DNA from: Methanomethylovorans sp. | GTDB taxonomy: Archaea; Halobacteriota; Methanosarcinia; Methanosarcinales; Methanosarcinaceae | Direction: 5' to 3' | Length of the DNA stretch: 12,054 nucleotides | Assembly (NCBI GenBank): GCA_020854785.1 | Contig: JAHFZE010000010.1 | Span: forward strand, 1 to 12,054 | In this document: one piece after another, positions 2,770-12,054 of the stretch | Position numbering within the stretch: the first letter of the stretch is position 1 | Layout: each line of letters opens with the position of its first letter | The notes under the pieces: model-generated | Database searches by the model: none | What the model saw: the letters and a program-made list of their open reading frames with translations, nothing else | Told to the model about the DNA's origin: nothing | Translations under genes and position numbers: made by a program

Positions 2770-4707
2770 TCATTCTCCTTTCTTTATGGAGAACCAGAAC
2801 ACACTTCCTTTGCCAGCCGGGTTACTGGTCACTCCGATGTTTCCTCCATGCAGGTCAATTATTCTTTTTGCAATGGCCAGTCCTAACCCGCTTCCTTTGA
2901 CCCCTCCTTTGTGGGCCCTGCTGAAACGATCAAATATCTGTTCCCTGTCATCGGCTTCCACGCCTTCACCGGAGTCTGTTATAAGGACCTTCCAGTTTGT
3001 GTGTTCATCTTCAATAGTGATGATTATCTCACTATCAGGAGGACTATATTTGATGGCATTGGAAAGTATGTTGGAGAACACTTCTGCAATGATAGGGTTT
3101 ATCAAAGCATTATACTCTTTTTCCTTAGGTACTTTCAATGAAATGCCTTTAGCCTTCAACTGAGGCTGATAGCTATCCACAACTGGCAACATCAGAGGAA
3201 GCAGATCAACTGTCTTAAAATCGAGCTCTTCAATACTCTCGAACTTTGCAAGCTTTGCAGCATTATCTATCATTTCAATAAGCTTGCGGTTATTCTGATA
3301 TATCTTCTCAAGAACTTGCTTCTTTTCATCGTTTTCTGCGCTATCCAAAAGAAACTCAGTGTATCCTTTCATTACAGATGCAGGGCCAAGAAGATCATGC
3401 CGGAGTATGTCGGTGAAAAGATCCTTCATTCTGGTTAACTGTATTAGTTCCTCATTGGATTTACGCAGCATTTCAGCCCTTTTACTCTCGGACAGGTCCC
3501 TTGCAATGTTTATTATTGCTTTTTGCCCTTCATAATCGATCAGTCGGCTGCTCAGTTCAACTGGGATAAGAGTGCCATCTCGGCTGACATGTACTGTTTC
3601 GGAAAATGCCTCTTTATTTTTAAAAACTGCATTGATCCTTTTTTCTGTTTTAATGGGAGAATGATGGAACATGATCTCCCATCTTTGCATTTTAAGTAGT
3701 TCTTCCTTGGAATAACCCAGTGTTTCACATAATACATTATTAACCTCAAGGAAGTTTCCTTTCAGATCATTTATATAAATAGCGTCATTGACATTATTAA
3801 ATATTGATCTAAATTTTTTTTCGGATAACTCAAGTTTTCGCTCATGCTCCTTGCGTTCACTTATATCGAACTTCTGGAATAGGACGATCAATAGGAGAAT
3901 AAGTAAGATGAGATAGAGACTTCCGTGTCCGAACGTTTCCCACAGTTCCAGGTGTGTGCTTAACAGCGTATCAGACGGTAATGCATACAATAACATTTCC
4001 CTGTTGTAAAGCTTCATTTTTGAAGTTGATAGGAACCTATCTGACTGTTCAAATTCCAATTCATAATCTTGTGACGTGTAGACCACTTTCTGGTCATCCA
4101 TTACTTGTAACAATATCTCATTGTTCTGTCTGAAAACACTGTTCTGTGCAAAGATGTCTTCGCATGTAAAGGTGAGCTGGAAAAACGAGTGTCCTTCATA
4201 AGGCACCATTAGAGAATATTGATATTTGCCGGGCGTGACCTCATAAGGCCTTGAAAGGTATGGCTTATTGGTGTGCTCGGCTACAAGCATTGCTATTTCC
4301 AATATTGAACTGTTATCACCATATACAGTTGGCAGAGCATTACTGCTGGCTGGTAATGTGAAGGTAAGGTTTTGTTCGGTATCGATATAATGAATGGAAG
4401 ATAGAAATGTATATTTTTTGAGCAATGGTTTAGCCTTAAATGAGAACTCATCCTGATCCTGTGGAGGAGAGCTTTGTTTAACGTCATATATTGTTAAAAG
4501 ATCGCGGGTCACTTCATCAAGCTGTGCACCAAGGCTTATACCAATATGCATAGCTTCGATTTTGGTTTGAGACTCCATGTTTGCAAGTGTGTTTTTTCTG
4601 TCTTGCTCAATAGAGTAAGATGCCAAAGCTATGAATATCACACAGATCAATACGATCAGAAGAGTCCATCGGTTCCTAGTAGCAAACTCGTAGAGATGTG
4701 AGCCCAT
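2770..4707 (-). CDS. Membrane-bound PAS sensor histidine kinase
   Basis: The product has 645 residues from the ATG at 4707; a TTG one codon earlier is less likely. A first membrane helix lies at about residues 14-33, followed by an extracytoplasmic sensor region of about 220 residues with a Cache/CHASE-like layout (for example YIDTEQNLTFTLP and PYEVTPGKYQYSLMVPYEG). A second helix lies at about 263-279. A PAS domain follows (about 293-409), then a dimerisation domain with phosphoacceptor His437 in ILRHDLLGPAS. The ATPase domain has an N-box (NILSNAIKYSPP), G1 (DSGEGV), F-box (FDRF) and G2 (GSGLGLAIA). All catalytic motifs look intact. The H-box H-D-L-L-G-P differs from the bacterial H-E-L-R-T-P but is usual for methanogen kinases. 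No response regulator is adjacent, so its target is unknown. The ATG is about 28 bp from TATAAAA, which suggests a leaderless mRNA. Confidence 0.92.
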   Translation of the reverse strand: MGSHLYEFATRNRWTLLIVLICVIFIALASYSIEQDRKNTLANMESQTKIEAMHIGISLGAQLDEVTRDLLTIYDVKQSSPPQDQDEFSFKAKPLLKKYTFLSSIHYIDTEQNLTFTLPASSNALPTVYGDNSSILEIAMLVAEHTNKPYLSRPYEVTPGKYQYSLMVPYEGHSFFQLTFTCEDIFAQNSVFRQNNEILLQVMDDQKVVYTSQDYELEFEQSDRFLSTSKMKLYNREMLLYALPSDTLLSTHLELWETFGHGSLYLILLILLLIVLFQKFDISERKEHERKLELSEKKFRSIFNNVNDAIYINDLKGNFLEVNNVLCETLGYSKEELLKMQRWEIMFHHSPIKTEKRINAVFKNKEAFSETVHVSRDGTLIPVELSSRLIDYEGQKAIINIARDLSESKRAEMLRKSNEELIQLTRMKDLFTDILRHDLLGPASVMKGYTEFLLDSAENDEKKQVLEKIYQNNRKLIEMIDNAAKLAKFESIEELDFKTVDLLPLMLPVVDSYQPQLKAKGISLKVPKEKEYNALINPIIAEVFSNILSNAIKYSPPDSEIIITIEDEHTNWKVLITDSGEGVEADDREQIFDRFSRAHKGGVKGSGLGLAIAKRIIDLHGGNIGVTSNPAGKGSVFWFSIKKGE

Positions 4708-4731
4708 CAAATATTATAATTAAGTAAGCAC

Positions 4732-5534: not shown

Positions 5535-5570
5535 GTATTAGCTCTAATACACATATAACTATAAAATACA
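5535..5570 (+). promoter_or_regulatory. Probable promoter of the PAS/GAF-mtaC-like operon with an operator dyad
   Basis: GTATTAG-CT-CTAATAC (5535-5550) is an inverted repeat with perfect 7-bp arms. About 10 bp downstream is the strong TATA box ACTATAAAATACA (5558-5570). Transcription would start near 5590, leaving a leader of about 264 nt before the ATG at 5854. Alternative TATA-like elements lie closer to the gene (ATATATAA at 5671-5678, ATTATAAG at 5791-5798), so the start site is not certain. Confidence 0.45.
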
Positions 5571-5589
5571 ATATATAACAAGTACATTG

Positions 5590-5853
5590 ATAAGGATTGC
5601 AGCTCACATCTTGCTGAATACTCCTTGGTAGATTGGATCGAAGGAAGTATCAAAAGTTAGATGCGAGCCGATATATAATCGGGCAAACTTGTATTTAAAG
5701 TCTCTTTTGTCCCTGCAGAATTTTTCAATGATAGTCAACAGTTTCATTAATACCAATATCTGTATTGTGAGCACATCACACGTTGTCTACATTATAAGGC
5801 ACCATTATAGTGACCTTGAACCGGCACTATGATCAAAGATTGCAGGTGTACAC
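5590..5853 (+). other. Long putative leader of the PAS/GAF operon
   Basis: This noncoding stretch holds several signals. GGTAGATTGGATC (5627-5639) followed by GAAGGAAGT (5640-5648) repeats words found in the same order in the mtaCB leader. After them comes a five-codon ORF, ATG CGA GCC GAT ATA TAA (5661-5678), whose end overlaps the dyad CCGAT-ATATA-ATCGG (5668-5682). Near the gene, ATAGTG...CACTAT (5807-5812 with 5825-5830) can form a 6-bp stem 14 nt before the ribosome binding site CAGGTG (5843-5848). The words may be remnants of an mtaC-type leader, or parts of a leader-based control element. Confidence 0.4.
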
Positions 5854-8601
5854 ATGGATGTTTTAGCAAAAAAACTTGGAACTACATTTTGCAATACTGT
5901 ATTTACTATTTCATGGAAGAATGATGAGAACTGGTCAGTCCATCATGTCTCAGAGAATATAGAGCAACTGGGATACACACCCGAAGAGTTCATTTCAGGT
6001 GATCTCAGCTATGCCGGGATCGTACATCCCGATGACAGGGAAAGTTTCAGGTCTTCTGTGCTCCAATGGGACTGGAAGCACACTCCGTGCCTTTTCCAGG
6101 AATGCAGGATACTTGACAATAAAGGCAATATACACCGGATGGCCAAATTTCTGTGCGGACAATGTGATAATAAAGGTGCACTGCAATATGTCGAAGGAAC
6201 TATTGTGGATGTCACAGTAAGTAAAAGGAACGAATTATCCCTCATGTCAGAGAACGATTATCTCAGGAATGCTGTGAACACTGCAAAAGAAGCATTGTTG
6301 GTCCTTGATAGTGATTTGAAGATAATCTTTGCAAACCTTGCCTTTTCCCGTTTATTCTTAACAGGCTCCTCAGCCATAGAAGGACATTCCATGTACGACA
6401 TTGAAGACGGCCAGTGGAATATACCGGTCCTGCAGGACAGAATGTCAGTTCTTCTGAAAGATGGCATAGAGTTCAATGATCTGGAAACAGAGATCCATGT
6501 CAGTAAAAAAGGACAGCGTGTGCTCCTGATCAATTCCAGGATAGTAAGTACAGCCCACAACAGGACAAGCATGGTCCTGCTTGCAGTTGAAGATGTCACT
6601 GACAGCAAAAGGTCTGCAAGGGAGTTAAAGGCATCAGAGGCAAAATATTCTGCCCTTGTGGAAAAAGGTAATGATGGCATAATCATAGTACAGGCAGATA
6701 TCCTAAGGTTCATTAATTCCAAGTTCCTGGAGCTGACAGGGTATCAGGAAGAAGAGATCATCAACAGCATATTGCTTGATCACGTGCCTGTGGATTTCAG
6801 ACGCATGCTTGCAAAAAGATGTGCTAAGGCATTAAGAGACGAAAGAAGCATAAAACGCAATTATGACGTGGACTTCTTCAGGAAAGATGGAGCTACTTTT
6901 CCTGCTGAGGTCAGCTTCTCATTCATATCGTATGAAAATGACCCGGCTGTCATGATCACCATCAGAGACATAGCAGAACGTAAAAAAGCAGAGATGCAGC
7001 TCAAGAACTCTGAAAAGAAGTACTCTACCCTTGTAGAAAAGAGCAATGATGGCATTGTCATTTTACAGGATGATCAGCTTGTGTTTGCCAATAACAAGTT
7101 TATCGAGATCACAGGATATACACTTACAGAGGCCATCGGCAAAAACTTCACAAGCTTTCTTTCCACTCAATATCGTCGCATGTTCATCGGCAACTCCAAA
7201 AAGAAACTGGGAAAAAGAAGTGAGAGTCTCCTGAAATATGAGATAGAGCTGCTTTCAAAGGTGGGTAAAAAGATCCCTGCAGAGATCAACTCATCTGTGA
7301 TCGAGCATGAAGGAAAGCCTGCTTACATGGCCATTATAAGAGATATCACGGAGCAGAAAACAAGAGAAAAGGAGCTCTTGAAGCTCATTGAAGTCAGGAA
7401 GGTCCTGGAAAATGTCATCGAAAGTAGTCCTGCAATTGTTTTTTTCTGGAAAGTCGATAATAAATGGCCTGTAGAATTCGTATCTGAGAACATTTCTCAG
7501 TTTGGATACAGCGCAAAGGAATTCATGTCAGGTGCAATACTTTATGGTGATATAGTTCATCCTTCGGACCTGGAAAAAATAGACCGCGGTATTTCAAGAT
7601 GCTTCCAGGAAGATGATAATAATATTTCTCTTGAGTATCGTATCCTTACAAGATCCGGTGAGGTACGCTGGATAGATGAAAGATCGGTCATCAAAAGAAA
7701 TCCTGAGGGCGACATAGAGTACATACAGGGCATTGTTGTTGATATCACTGAGCGGAAGAATGCCAACAATTTCATGCAAATATGCTCAGAGCTTGATACT
7801 TTTTTCACGCCAACGGCTGATATTAACGAGATCTTCCAGCAATTGATCGAACTTGTGACCCAGGTCAAGGGAATAGATTGCGGTGAATTGTATCTTGTGG
7901 ATGAGGTTACAGGCGATCTGAACCTGGTTGCACACAAAGGCCTGTCTTTCAGGTTCGTGAACAATACCCGGCGGTATGCTGCCAATTCTCTTCAGGCAAG
8001 GGTCCTCAAAACAGAGTATCCGATATATAAATTGTATTATGAGATTAACTCCATGACCCCTGGCAATGATCTTGATTTTGAAGGACTGGAAGCTACTGTC
8101 ATATTACCCCTGAAATATGAAGGTAATATTGTAGCAGTACTTTTGCTGGCATCACATGATGAGTATGCTATTGCGCAAAATACGCGCACTATAATTGAAA
8201 GTATTGCTTCTCAGGTAGGTCCTTCTATTGGACGTATTAGAGAGCAGGTACATTTCCAGAAGGACCTTAACAATCTGCAGGGAATATTTGATAGTTTAGA
8301 TGATTTTTTGTTTGTTCTTGATAAGGATGGGTGTATATTACATACTAATAGCTTCCTGTGTAAACGTCTGGGATATTCCCCTGAGGAATTGCTGGGTTTG
8401 AACATACTTAATGTGCATCCTCAGAACAAAGCCATAGAAATAGCTGCTGAACTTGCAGATATACTGGCCGGAAAAATGTCTATAGTAAGGTCACCATTTG
8501 AATCATATAATGGAGAACTGATACCTGTAGAGGTCAAAGCCACCAGAGGGAACTGGAATGGGCATCCAGCCTTTATTTGTCTAGGCCGGGAGATCAAATA
8601 A
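5854..8601 (+). CDS. Kinase-less PAS/GAF multidomain sensor protein
   Basis: This 915-residue soluble protein has no membrane segment. It reads as six PAS domains at about residues 13-124, 138-255, 262-378, 387-503, 517-636 and 806-915. A GAF domain at about 645-797 separates the last two. PAS-1 and PAS-5 are of the PAS_3 type and close to each other (HVSENIEQLGYTPEEF and FVSENISQFGYSAKEF, both with I-V-H-P). PAS-3 and PAS-4 are a tandem duplication (KYSALVEKGNDGII and KYSTLVEKSNDGIV). The protein ends at FICLGREIK, exactly where the last PAS domain ends. There is no histidine phosphoacceptor, ATPase, GGDEF, HTH or methyl-accepting domain after it. The ATG has a CAGGTG ribosome binding site. 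The MtaC-like gene starts 34 nt downstream with no promoter between, so they form an operon. Redox or heme sensing, as in methanogen PAS/GAF kinases such as MsmS, is possible (Cys676 in GIDCGELYLVD), but unproven. Confidence 0.88.
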   Translation: MDVLAKKLGTTFCNTVFTISWKNDENWSVHHVSENIEQLGYTPEEFISGDLSYAGIVHPDDRESFRSSVLQWDWKHTPCLFQECRILDNKGNIHRMAKFLCGQCDNKGALQYVEGTIVDVTVSKRNELSLMSENDYLRNAVNTAKEALLVLDSDLKIIFANLAFSRLFLTGSSAIEGHSMYDIEDGQWNIPVLQDRMSVLLKDGIEFNDLETEIHVSKKGQRVLLINSRIVSTAHNRTSMVLLAVEDVTDSKRSARELKASEAKYSALVEKGNDGIIIVQADILRFINSKFLELTGYQEEEIINSILLDHVPVDFRRMLAKRCAKALRDERSIKRNYDVDFFRKDGATFPAEVSFSFISYENDPAVMITIRDIAERKKAEMQLKNSEKKYSTLVEKSNDGIVILQDDQLVFANNKFIEITGYTLTEAIGKNFTSFLSTQYRRMFIGNSKKKLGKRSESLLKYEIELLSKVGKKIPAEINSSVIEHEGKPAYMAIIRDITEQKTREKELLKLIEVRKVLENVIESSPAIVFFWKVDNKWPVEFVSENISQFGYSAKEFMSGAILYGDIVHPSDLEKIDRGISRCFQEDDNNISLEYRILTRSGEVRWIDERSVIKRNPEGDIEYIQGIVVDITERKNANNFMQICSELDTFFTPTADINEIFQQLIELVTQVKGIDCGELYLVDEVTGDLNLVAHKGLSFRFVNNTRRYAANSLQARVLKTEYPIYKLYYEINSMTPGNDLDFEGLEATVILPLKYEGNIVAVLLLASHDEYAIAQNTRTIIESIASQVGPSIGRIREQVHFQKDLNNLQGIFDSLDDFLFVLDKDGCILHTNSFLCKRLGYSPEELLGLNILNVHPQNKAIEIAAELADILAGKMSIVRSPFESYNGELIPVEVKATRGNWNGHPAFICLGREIK

Positions 8602-8635
8602 AAAAGTATTCAAAAAATGTATTCGAGGCAAAAAT

Positions 8636-9400
8636 ATGATCAATGTCGATCCATCCAAGATCCTGGTGAGGTATAACGTAAAAGTTGAAAAGGAAATAAG
8701 CCCCGAAGAAATAGCTAAGCAGCTATATCCTGAAGATATTGTGATACGACCTATCGTTGAAGCTGTTTTTGAAGGCGATGAAGATGATGTGATAGATGCT
8801 TTAGAGGCAGCCATCCAAGCAGGCAGGGACCCTTTGTCTTTGATCGATGATGCACTCATGCAGGGGATGGGCATTGTTTCTAAATTATATGACGACGGTT
8901 TTCTTTTCCTTCCGGATGTCATTATATCCGCACATGCCATGACAGATGGCATTGAATATTGTAAACAGAGTTCTAGTGCAACTCATGAGTTTAAAGGAAA
9001 GGTCGTGTCCTTTGTTGTGGAAGGGGATACGCACGATATTGGAAAAAAGATCGTCACGGTCCTGTTGCGTGCCAGCGGATATGAGGTCATAGACCTTGGA
9101 AGCGATGTGCTGGTGAGTGAAGTGATCAGTGTCGTCAGGAGGGAAAAACCTATAATGCTTTCCGGTACTGCTTTGATGACAACTACTATGTACACGTTCA
9201 AAGAGATCAATAACCAGTTGCTTGAGAACGATATCCACATTCCTTTTGTCTGCGGAGGCGGAGCTGTGAAACAGGATTTCGTATTTGGCTATGAACTCGG
9301 AGTATATTGCGAAAATGCAGCAGATGCTCCAAAGATAGCCGATGAGATCCTCAGGGGTGCGGGCGTGAAAGAGCTAAGAGAAAAGTTTCACAGGCATTGA
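8636..9400 (+). CDS. mtaC: MtaC paralog (methanol corrinoid protein-like) without a partner mtaB
   Basis: This 254-residue corrinoid protein has the same length as the MtaC encoded at 10027 and aligns with it without gaps at 164 of 254 identical residues (about 65%, counted by hand). The N-terminal helical cap domain covers about 31-115, and the B12-binding Rossmann domain covers about 121-254. The cobalt-ligand motif is intact: D131-T-H133-D-I-G136, as are SGTALMTTT (176-184) and C-G-G-G-A (206-210). It should therefore bind a corrinoid. It lies 34 nt after the PAS/GAF gene, with ribosome binding site GAGG (8625-8628), and no methyltransferase gene is next to it. Differences from the other copy cluster in the interdomain linker (111-119) and include H100 for D and C225 for G. 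It could serve as an alternative partner for MtaB, or as a corrinoid sensor working with the PAS/GAF protein; the context favours the latter. Confidence 0.9.
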   Translation: MINVDPSKILVRYNVKVEKEISPEEIAKQLYPEDIVIRPIVEAVFEGDEDDVIDALEAAIQAGRDPLSLIDDALMQGMGIVSKLYDDGFLFLPDVIISAHAMTDGIEYCKQSSSATHEFKGKVVSFVVEGDTHDIGKKIVTVLLRASGYEVIDLGSDVLVSEVISVVRREKPIMLSGTALMTTTMYTFKEINNQLLENDIHIPFVCGGGAVKQDFVFGYELGVYCENAADAPKIADEILRGAGVKELREKFHRH

Positions 9401-9887: not shown

Positions 9888-9924
9888 CATAAAGGTTATA
9901 TACCTAAACCATAAGAACCAAACA

Positions 9925-9932
9925 TTTAAATA
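9925..9932 (+). promoter_or_regulatory. TATA box of mtaCB
   Basis: TTTAAATA in an AAACATTTAAATACA context. Transcription would start near 9955, giving a leader of about 72 nt. A second TATATA at 9898-9903, within AGGTTATATACCT, is an alternative that would lengthen the leader by about 27 nt. Confidence 0.45.
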
Positions 9933-9954
9933 CATAAATTGAAGTTGCTTAGCT

Positions 9955-10026
9955 GGGTCGAGAGACCTACTAAGGTAGATTGGATCAAGGCTTATTGGAG
10001 CCTTAAAAAATAGAAGGAAGTGTAGC
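9955..10026 (+). other. Structured mtaCB leader and ribosome binding site
   Basis: The leader contains CTAC-TAAG-GTAG (9967-9978 region), then GGTAGATTGGATC (9974-9986), then a 6-bp perfect hairpin AAGGCT-TATTGG-AGCCTT (9987-10004) followed by six A. GAAGGAAGTG (10013-10022) then supplies the ribosome binding site before the ATG at 10027. Methanosarcina mtaCB transcripts are known for long leaders, so a role in mRNA stability or translation control is plausible. Confidence 0.45.
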
Positions 10027-10791
10027 ATGTTAAAAATAGACTACAAGGATATATTAGTCAGATACAACGTAAAAATGGAAAAATCAATGACCCCGGAAGA
10101 CGCTGCAGCAGAGCTTTATCCAAAGGATGCTCTTATACGCCCCATCGCTGAAGCTATTTTCGAAGGCGAAGAAGACGATGTGATCGCAGGTCTGGAAAAG
10201 GCCATTGAAGCCGGAAAAAGTCCAATTTCCCTCATTGATGATGCCCTGATGGTCGGAATGGGCGTAGTAACAAAACTTTATGACCAGGGTATAATCTTCC
10301 TGCCAAACGTTATGATGTCTGCAGATGCAATGCTTGATGGTATCGAGTATTGTAAGGAAAAATCTGGTGAATCCCCGGTAACAAAAGGAAAGATCGTTGT
10401 CCACGTAGCAGAAGGAGATGTTCACGACATTGGTAAGTCCATCGTTGCAGCACTTCTCAGAGCAAACGGTTATGAAGTGGTCGATCTTGGCAGAGATGTA
10501 CCAGCAGCAGAGGTTCTCGCAGCAGTTAAAGAACATAAGCCTCTGTTGGTATCAGGCACTGCATTGATGACAACCACCATGTATGCCTTCAAAGAAGTTA
10601 ACGACCAGCTCCTTGAAGCCGGTATCAAGATACCTTTTGCATGTGGTGGCGGAGCAGTTAACCAAGACTTCGTTTCAACATACAATCTTGGTGTCTATGG
10701 TGAGGAAGCAGCAGATGCACCAAAGATGGCAGATGCTATACTGAAGGGTGCTGGCATAGAGAAGCTAAGAGAGATGTTCCACAAACACTGA
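10027..10791 (+). CDS. mtaC: Methanol-specific corrinoid protein MtaC
   Basis: The protein has 254 residues, the expected length for MtaC. It begins MLKIDYKDILVRYNVKMEKS and has the helical cap domain (about 31-115) and the B12-binding domain (about 121-254). The cobalt-ligand motif is D131-V-H133-D-I-G136, and SGTALMTTT and C-G-G-G-A are present. MtaC carries the methyl group: MtaB methylates its Co(I) corrinoid with methanol, and MtaA moves the methyl to coenzyme M, the substrate of methyl-coenzyme M reductase. All steps are cytoplasmic. The mtaB start lies 14 nt beyond the stop, so the two genes are co-transcribed. An unusually large upstream region with an inverted repeat, TATA box and structured leader suggests strong, regulated expression. 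Confidence 0.96.
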   Translation: MLKIDYKDILVRYNVKMEKSMTPEDAAAELYPKDALIRPIAEAIFEGEEDDVIAGLEKAIEAGKSPISLIDDALMVGMGVVTKLYDQGIIFLPNVMMSADAMLDGIEYCKEKSGESPVTKGKIVVHVAEGDVHDIGKSIVAALLRANGYEVVDLGRDVPAAEVLAAVKEHKPLLVSGTALMTTTMYAFKEVNDQLLEAGIKIPFACGGGAVNQDFVSTYNLGVYGEEAADAPKMADAILKGAGIEKLREMFHKH

Positions 10792-10805
10792 ACGAGGTGA
10801 AAAAA

Positions 10806-12054
10806 ATGGCAGTCAAAAGATATACACAGATGGCTTATGCAAATGCAGATGAGATGGTATTCGGCCGTGCAAAATATCCGGTAAAGGCAGGACTTGGAAT
10901 TGAGCTTGGTGCAGGATGCACTATTGCTGAAGTGAACTACGCACCCAGACCAGAAGCAGGCGCTTCCAAAGAGAAGCTGGTCAATGAGTACCAGAGGATC
11001 ACAAGAGACATTCTGCAGAGAATGGTACAGGTGGGCTTCCCGGCAGTAGTACTTGAAACAGAACACGTGCAGCAGATGACAAATAACCCAACATGGGGTG
11101 GCGAGGTTGCACACGCACAGAAGACCATTATGGAAGAGTACTATGAGGAATACGGACTGAAGTCCGCACTGAGGCATACTCCCGGTGACATAAGAGAGAA
11201 CAAGGATTACATGGACCTCAGAGGAAACAAGTATCCTGTCCTTATGGAGTCATTCGAGGCTGTTGCAGAAGGCGGAGCAGACTTCTTATCCATTGAATCA
11301 ATGGGCGGAAAGGAGATCTTTGACCATGCGATCCTGAGGAATGACATTGGCGGTATGCTCTACGCAATAGGCGTACTGGGCAGCATGGACATGGAATACC
11401 TCTGGCAGGACATTGCAAAGGTCGCACAGAAGAAGAATGTTATTGCAGCCGGTGACACAGACTGTGCCCAGGCAAACACTGCAATGTTCATTGCAGGCGG
11501 ACTTCTGGACAAGAACCTGGCACACACCCTCGCTATCATCGCAAGGAGCCTGGCAGGAGCAAGGACACTGTCCGGATATGAAGCCGGTGCAGTTGGCCCA
11601 GGAAAGGACTGCGGATACGAAAACATCTTCGTAAAGGCGATCACTGGTATGCCAATGGCCTTTGAAGGTAAGACCTCCACCTGTGCTCACTCCGATGTAA
11701 TGGGTAACCTCATCATGCAGTGCTGCGACCTGTGGTCCAACGAATCCGTTGAATACCACTCTGAGTTCGGTGGAACTACGGTCCAGTGCTGGTCAGAGAC
11801 CCTCAGCTACGACTGTGCTCTGATGAACGTTGCACTCAGATCCGGAAACGAGAAGCTCCTCAGGGACATGCTCGTAGCATCTGACAAGTACAGAGACCCA
11901 CAGTCCTACATCCTTGCATACGACAACGCATACAAGGTAGGTCAGTCAATTGTTAAGGACGGTAACGACCTGTACCTCCGTGCAAAGAACGCTGCTGTGG
12001 AATGCTGCAACCTGCTGACCGCTGCAGAGGGCCTTGAGATGACAAGGTTCGAGA
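10806..12054 (+). CDS. mtaB: Methanol:corrinoid methyltransferase MtaB (cut by right edge)
   Basis: An open frame of 416 codons runs from the ATG at 10806 to the window edge. MtaB is usually about 460 residues, so roughly the last 45 are outside. It begins MAVKRYTQMAYANADEMVFG. The three zinc ligands known from Methanosarcina barkeri MtaB fall at exactly the expected positions: E164 (FLSIESMGG), C220 (AGDTDCAQA) and C269 (GPGKDCGYE). The enzyme uses zinc to activate methanol and transfers its methyl group to the corrinoid of MtaC. The ribosome binding site GAGGTG (10794-10799) is strong. The 14-nt spacing from mtaC is the classical mtaCB arrangement. Confidence 0.97.
   Translation, partial: MAVKRYTQMAYANADEMVFGRAKYPVKAGLGIELGAGCTIAEVNYAPRPEAGASKEKLVNEYQRITRDILQRMVQVGFPAVVLETEHVQQMTNNPTWGGEVAHAQKTIMEEYYEEYGLKSALRHTPGDIRENKDYMDLRGNKYPVLMESFEAVAEGGADFLSIESMGGKEIFDHAILRNDIGGMLYAIGVLGSMDMEYLWQDIAKVAQKKNVIAAGDTDCAQANTAMFIAGGLLDKNLAHTLAIIARSLAGARTLSGYEAGAVGPGKDCGYENIFVKAITGMPMAFEGKTSTCAHSDVMGNLIMQCCDLWSNESVEYHSEFGGTTVQCWSETLSYDCALMNVALRSGNEKLLRDMLVASDKYRDPQSYILAYDNAYKVGQSIVKDGNDLYLRAKNAAVECCNLLTAAEGLEMTRFE

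Follow-up and report, generated by a model that had tools for sequence, protein, structure and literature searches.

Analysis of a 12,054-nt stretch of Methanomethylovorans sp. DNA (contig JAHFZE010000010.1; hereafter the window, which is contig C119 of a 2.06-Mb genome that is 76.5% complete) revealed a conserved pair of genes that encode a PAS/GAF protein with no output domain and MtaCx, an orphan paralogue of the methanol corrinoid protein MtaC. The pairing, and a structured 5′ leader common to the PAS/GAF gene and the canonical mtaC, are well supported, and we think it probable, with some reserve, that the two proteins form a pair that regulates methanol (and betaine) genes, with the corrinoid protein as reporter of methylation or redox state. 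The PAS/GAF gene (5854..8601, + strand; 915 aa) is followed after 34 nt by the gene for MtaCx (8636..9400, +; 254 aa), after a further 626 nt by the canonical mtaC (10027..10791, +; NCBIfam MtaC_Meth, 468.6 bits) and 5 nt later by mtaB (10797..12053, +; MtaB_Meth, 749.9 bits), which is cut by the window end and is the sole mtaB in the window. These open reading frames (ORFs) and gaps agree with the layout in the initial annotation, which placed an intact MtaC paralogue without mtaB 34 nt behind the 915-aa protein and mtaCB downstream of it.

ORF and domain scans gave the order PAS-PAS-PAS-PAS-PAS-GAF-PAS for the 915-aa protein. Scanned in seven pieces, it matched Pfam PAS six times and GAF_2 once, all above cut-off, and a scan of the whole protein at E ≤ 0.01 found no HisKA, HATPase, REC or helix-turn-helix (HTH) domain in Pfam, thus confirming the six PAS domains, the single GAF domain and the missing output domain that had first been read from the sequence. 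NCBIfam matches to kinases and regulators all fell under their cut-offs (PpsR-CrtJ, over the PAS part, scored 55 bits against 275), and simple kinase-motif patterns were not found; a cryptic kinase or HTH domain was rejected on the strength of these Pfam, NCBIfam and motif scans. Thirteen PAS/GAF proteins from methanol, betaine, methylamine and genus g5 loci, the window's included, were then compared in Pfam: none (0/13) has a kinase or other output family above cut-off, HATPase has no match in the window protein or its 12 relatives, and a diguanylate-cyclase-like sensor match overlaps the PAS part. The position of GAF Cys676 is cysteine in 26 of 43 rows of one alignment and 14 of 19 rows of another (A3); a haem- or thiol-binding GAF cysteine is a trait of sensor kinases of the MsmS/RdmS type. 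Shorter PAS/GAF genes also exist. Those of 730–864 aa (L090, L092, L093 and L096) form a separate clade in trimethylamine-type clusters with mttB-like and corrinoid genes, in which neither an MtaC-type orphan nor a match to leader model R1 (see below) was found and two scanned proteins gave no kinase; in genus g5 (L085 and L086), PAS/GAF proteins of 560–728 aa lie near corrinoid proteins of 216–217 aa and MtaA/MtbA-type genes.

MtaCx passes the NCBIfam model NF040655 (MtaC_Meth) with 456.4 bits against a cut-off of 420, is similar to the MtaC chain of 2I2X (chain B) over residues 7–254 (E 5.5e-106), and retains the corrinoid motif EGDTHDIGK (nt 9020–9046). Neither in the window nor in 18 mapped methanol-form relatives is it followed by an mtaB (0/19 maps of the window's genus and Methanolobus). 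When 16 orphan rows were compared with 38 MtaB-paired rows (L003 was not in this comparison), 61 positions showed at most one exception in either group, including the corrinoid-motif residues E129, G130, D131 and H133–K137. The motif is intact and under purifying selection: dN/dS against the nearest relative, G066, is 0.162 for the PAS/GAF gene, 0.082 for MtaCx, 0.033 for mtaC and 0.048 for mtaB, and three orphan pairs gave 0.082, 0.054 (close to saturation, with dS 1.29) and, for the betaine orphans of G026 and G022, 0.101. A decaying duplicate is unlikely in view of these ratios and the intact motif.

The initial annotation had suggested a search for the pair in other genomes, and it is indeed found there: in three genomes of the window's genus (the window included), in 16 of Methanolobus and in three betaine operons. 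The 111 genomes of the family were searched, and gene maps were drawn for named relatives and for stretches of other family genomes, with neighbour families defined as clusters named after scanned representatives. The window, G066 and G069 share the order PAS/GAF, MtaCx, mtaC-mtaB, and the 16 mapped Methanolobus genomes have MtaCx, PAS/GAF, mtaC-mtaB (in G047, MtaCx is cut by a contig end). Adjacency was judged in 50 hand-picked cases (the top MtaCx matches and the g12, g3 and betaine loci). Among the best 46 MtaCx matches in the family, orphan and paired forms together, 44 adjoin a same-strand PAS/GAF gene (G022:C115 judged by eye), the other two being G070:C23, at a contig end, and the window's canonical mtaC. 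Matches to MtaCx at E ≤ 1e-70 occur in 94 of the 237 genomes of the class, all 94 within this family.

The pair also occurs in glycine-betaine operons, where it was probably reused. Two Methanococcoides genomes (G022 and G026) and one of Methanolobus (G064, M. vulcani B1d) carry it near BCCT betaine transporters and a pyrrolysine-free MttB-type gene. A further corrinoid gene follows in two of these maps, the mapped part of G026 stopping short of this position; none of the three stretches contains an mtaB. The MttB-type gene matches at E ≤ 1e-150 in three of the 111 family genomes, exactly these three, and the B1d orphan matches at 73–100% identity in the same three genomes and at 58–62% in three others (E ≤ 1e-90). 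The names MtgB and MtgC rest on the B1d paper, the G026 MttB-type gene and the G022 corrinoid gene being below the specific NCBIfam cut-offs. Betaine:CoM transfer of B1d was rebuilt in vitro from MtgB, MtgC, RamM and MtaA only, and a word search of the main text of that paper brought up no mention of the pair (PMC6855144).

Trees of the two proteins match. They were built from fetched loci rather than from all 111 genomes (57 MtaC rows; 42 PAS/GAF rows, last 560 residues) and are unrooted and drawn at the midpoint. MtaCs that lack mtaB and are linked to PAS/GAF fall into a single clade of the MtaC tree (17 of 57 rows, support 96/98), and their partners form a matching clade in the PAS/GAF tree (17 of 42 rows, 100/99); both clades are made up of 3 betaine, 3 window-genus and 11 Methanolobus rows from the same loci; within the PAS/GAF clade, the fork that unites the window's genus and Methanolobus has support 97/94. 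Row labels of the MtaC tree are automatic, so that L098_6623 and L081 count as mtaB-less through contig ends and L082 through an in-frame stop, and some canonical Methanolobus mtaCs are marked PAS/GAF-linked. The betaine pair of Methanococcoides clusters with orphan pairs from other genera, apart from the methanol PAS/GAF encoded in the same genome, which indicates that both genes moved or descended together. A chance neighbourhood was rejected because of the conservation across genera, the swap in gene order and the matching trees.

Upstream of both the PAS/GAF gene and mtaC lies the 12-mer AGATTGGATYRA, which occurs at two sites in the window's genome, 5630 and 9977, both in the window, with no control match. 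A tighter form, TAGATTGGATHGA, matched in 48 of the 111 family genomes; 21 of the 23 Methanolobus genomes with the locus carry exactly two copies, both within it, and G047 and G055 carry one each. The PAS/GAF leader (5599..5671, +) contains the outer stem P1 (5602–5611/5659–5668) around the core AGATTGGATCGA (5630–5641) and is preceded by the TATA-like box AATATATA (5570..5577, +; one mismatch to a TATA 8-mer), 29 nt before the leader row. The mtaC leader (9948..10008, +) comprises hairpin A (about 9954–9969), the core AGATTGGATCAA (9977–9988) and hairpin B (about 9987–10004), and an exact TATA-like box, TTTAAATA (9925..9932, +), stands 23 nt ahead of its row. From 32 PAS/GAF leaders, 26 were aligned after six near-duplicates (L015, L031, L034, L035, L038 and L045) had been dropped; P1 encloses the core in this alignment, with 85.6% of cells paired against 22.7–43.0% in slid controls, and both-side changes in 6 of its 12 pairs (22 cells) gave a covariation score reached by 0 of 500 shuffles. 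Fold z-scores were −2.79 for the window's PAS/GAF leader (5598–5690), −1.70 for its mtaC leader (9944–10030) and −3.44 for the mtaC leader of L065. The scan for TATA-like boxes used five 8-mers, a match to which is weak evidence in AT-rich DNA: an exact match lies within 60 nt of all 24 mtaC leaders (at 23–56 nt), the three PAS/GAF leaders of the window's genus (window, L007 and L055) have matches with 0–1 mismatches, and the best match within 60 nt of the 23 aligned PAS/GAF leaders from outside the genus has 2–3 mismatches. A DNA promoter element instead of an RNA is less likely, given these poor matches in 23 leaders and the compensatory changes in P1.

Covariance models were built from the 26 PAS/GAF leaders (R1) and from 24 mtaC leaders (R2), so these rows match by construction; the window's own leaders, which are rows of the models, match R1 with E 1.5e-12 and R2 with E 2.2e-12. 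At E ≤ 0.01, R1 found 54 matches in 51 of the 111 family genomes, and 51 of the 54 lie 5′ of a same-strand PAS/GAF match (in 50 genomes). Of the 54 best PAS/GAF matches, 51 are methanol-type genes, and each of these has such a leader, so the distribution of the leader tracks the methanol-type PAS/GAF gene; ten of the R1 genomes belong to genera g3, g9 and g10, which are outside the model, and many of the others were in it. Of the remaining three matches, one reads a palindromic site in G038 in reverse, one is a stray copy in G026:C14 and one lies in G070, where contig C44 (L174) has both genes found upstream in the window as well as the leader, and breaks off about 75 nt into a PAS/GAF reading frame. 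G070 had appeared as a counter-example, with an mtaC leader and no PAS/GAF match, and was set aside since its PAS/GAF gene was probably lost in an assembly gap at this contig end. The two upstream genes in G070 are, as in the window, a histidine kinase, which in G070 reads as two overlapping frames, and PvlArgDC. R2 gave 34 matches in 30 of the 111 genomes, 27 of them mtaC leaders of the window's genus and Methanolobus. The core motif GATTGGA stands ahead of mtaA as well, in two maps out of three for g10 and likewise for g12 (L075, L076, L082 and L083), and was found within 350 nt of none of 15 other mtaC genes (ten from g13, which we take to be Methanosarcina, two from g5 and three second Methanolobus copies). 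Rfam 15 gave no match at gathering score in the window and none at E ≤ 1 for 5540–5860 and 9900–10060, so a known riboswitch was rejected and the GATTGGA leader can be regarded as a candidate new RNA family of methanol genes that is absent from Rfam. Long mtaA and mtaC leaders are stated to stabilise mRNA in the cold in another methanogen (PMC5378194).

Several observations weaken the case for a regulatory role of the pair or of its leader. The 12-mer AGATTGGATYRA alone is unspecific: six genomes of the genus hold 16 matches, 7 at this locus and 9 elsewhere, and 7 of the 9 off-locus sites, when checked, showed no similarity to the window's proteins up to 1.5 kb away. The cutting of the PAS/GAF leader rows at the stem motifs favours the observed pairing (though not the covariation), and P1 pairs 8–90, 11–87 and 13–85 are broken in 12, 9 and 16 of the 26 rows, respectively. 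The two hairpins around the core of the mtaC leaders (n = 24) were read sequence by sequence without a chance control, their RNAalifold consensus is weak (−0.04 kcal/mol) with pairs that differ from these hairpins, and a 121-nt slice of L062 with the G066 leader folds no better than shuffles (z 0.05). The stray R1 copy in G026:C14 (L173) has no PAS/GAF gene after it, R1 leaders precede none of the three betaine PAS/GAF genes, and the R2 matches that are not mtaC leaders comprise three PAS/GAF leaders, one mtaA leader (G073) and three that are probably chance (G069:C1, G071:C9 and G105:C171). G067 and G068, of the window's own genus, have no match to either leader model and no close MtaCx; PAS/GAF and MtaCx of G022 and G026 are separated by a histidine kinase gene on the opposite strand; and the inner fork of the MtaC tree that joins the window-genus and Methanolobus orphans apart from the betaine ones is weak (83/40). 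Finally, in the Methanococcoides, g3, g9, g10 and g12 maps, the PAS/GAF gene precedes an MtaC with its own mtaB (in G030 of g9 the contig ends inside mtaB, and in G038 of g10 the MtaC has an in-frame stop), which indicates that the PAS/GAF link needs no orphan. The in-frame TAG in the G038 gene (L082:10515–11279) could reflect pyrrolysine read-through or a broken gene.

These paired forms bear on the strongest rival explanation, itself rather unlikely, which is that MtaCx is a spare catalytic subunit that carries methyl groups from MtaB (1.4 kb downstream, or another) to MtaA, next to a PAS/GAF protein that regulates independently. MtaCx is 65% identical to the window's canonical mtaC product and keeps the corrinoid motif, which makes an enzymatic role with MtaB in trans possible; its score above the MtaC_Meth cut-off fits as well, as does the fact that PAS/GAF-linked MtaCs outside the orphan clade still adjoin mtaB. 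However, the orphan clade has stayed with PAS/GAF, and not with mtaB, through the order swap and the move into betaine operons. Residues typical of the paired rows are also mostly lost in the 16 orphans: M21 is constant in the 38 paired rows and kept in 2 of 16 orphans, E227 is present in 37/38 and 0/16, and D230 in 37–38 of 38 and in 4/16, the window's own copy among them, these three having been chosen by scanning all positions of the alignment.

The PAS/GAF genes with mtaB-paired partners mostly come after mtaA, ramM and/or a CobW-type gene. This context would suit a second explanation, which we regard as improbable, in which the PAS/GAF protein assists corrinoid repair (RamM/RamA, CobW-type GTPase) as a redox sensor, MtaCx is a docking form or substrate, and protein activity rather than expression is controlled. 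The maps of Methanococcoides, g3, g9, g10 and g12 speak for it in this respect, and COG0523 GTPases are known beside mta genes (PMC2770081), but the mapped stretches from the window's genus and Methanolobus show none of the mtaA, ramM or cobW-type clusters next to the pair, and the shared leader ties the PAS/GAF gene to the control of expression.

The least probable of the three, that the leader is a mere sign of co-regulation through some unrelated factor, the pair acting on a separate kinase such as the histidine kinase at 2770–4710, draws on the presence of this kinase two genes away in the window and in G070 and on the unknown partners of the output-less REC-PAS/GAF proteins of methanogens (PMC5847659), but the 9.9 kb upstream of the G066 pair contain no match to the window's kinase, which is thus not a fixed neighbour. 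Elsewhere in the window, a GATase class-I-type protein (490–1120, − strand) appears to be split into two overlapping ORFs (668–1120 and 490–759), perhaps through a frameshift.

A regulatory pair is the reading we prefer. MtaCx keeps the corrinoid motif, lacks an mtaB and stays with PAS/GAF in an operon for another substrate, and is therefore best read as a sensor subunit. A mechanism is proposed where MtaCx carries a corrinoid and has ceased to work for an MtaB of its own, so that its methylated, Co(I) or Co(II) state would mirror the methyl supply and redox state of the cell. This cobalt state, which we infer to be the signal, would be passed by direct contact to the output-less PAS/GAF protein, whose domains are plausible receivers, through contact or by binding their own ligand. 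The PAS/GAF protein would then act, in whichever direction, on expression of mtaCB and of its own gene, and the likely point of action would be the GATTGGA leader of the PAS/GAF and mtaC transcripts, reached directly or via a further partner; an effect of the pair itself on the leader is a guess. The shared leader does place the PAS/GAF gene in the methanol regulon and suggests control after transcription start, although it cannot be the general output because the betaine PAS/GAF genes lack it. A fuller version, in which a methyl-carrier subunit has turned flux sensor and the pair controls the methanol methyltransferase genes after initiation through a new leader RNA (on the sensor gene, on mtaCB and, in some genera, on mtaA), is tentative and has more chance of failing than of holding. 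The original suggestion that a corrinoid protein is read by a sensory protein is partly supported: the two genes do form a specific and conserved pair, best read as sensory or regulatory in role, but the PAS/GAF link is not restricted to orphans. The pair probably senses the supply of methyl groups and helps to control methane formation in several genera of methanol-using methanogens.

No described system in which a corrinoid protein is paired with a PAS/GAF protein in this form was found in a search of open-licence literature, a collection without most subscription papers. The closest working analogue appears to be AerR (PpaA)/CrtJ (PpsR) of purple bacteria, whose genes are neighbours, so that the gene of a B12-domain protein adjoins that of a multi-PAS protein as for MtaCx and PAS/GAF. 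AerR regulates CrtJ and has its lower-ligand histidine in a Rossmann-type B12 domain (PMC9144470, PMC6199135, PMC5362033). CrtJ has a DNA-binding HTH domain, in contrast to the PAS/GAF protein, which has none in Pfam, and AerR is a light receptor of bacteria and not, as in these archaea, a close paralogue of a methyl carrier; lacking a DNA-binding domain, the pair is not a member of the AerR/CrtJ type. In Methanosarcina, mtaCB is served by separate regulators, the Msr proteins, and none of the ten mtaC genes checked from g13, presumably the same genus, is preceded by GATTGGA. The likeness to the Msr proteins lies in control of methanol methyltransferase genes (PMC11619418), and the authors of the betaine pathway state that it is not currently known how the methanol operon they used in M. 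vulcani B1d is regulated (PMC6855144). Substrate sensing by methylotrophic methanogens outside Methanosarcina is largely open, and the pair and its leader RNA provide named genes and an element for it.

The sensor kinases MsmS and RdmS of Methanosarcina acetivorans share the PAS/GAF make-up. They are cytosolic sensors tied to methyltransferase genes (PMC11784639, PMC11619418) and are described as binding and hydrolysing ATP via a kinase domain without an H-box (PMC11784639), whereas the PAS/GAF protein has neither kinase domain nor HATPase and has a corrinoid protein as its partner gene. Output-less archaeal REC-PAS-GAF proteins likewise have ligand-binding domains, no output and unknown partners (PMC5847659); the window protein differs in having no REC domain in Pfam and in having a conserved partner gene. 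For one class of archaeal PAS/GAF proteins without an output, MtaCx offers a candidate partner. MtaC of the methanol:coenzyme M methyltransferase itself (2I2X chain B) resembles MtaCx in sequence, corrinoid motif and membership of the MtaC_Meth family, whereas MtaCx has no adjoining mtaB, a clade of its own, a fixed PAS/GAF partner and orphan-clade changes such as those at M21 and E227, and could be a case of an enzyme cofactor subunit reused as a sensor.

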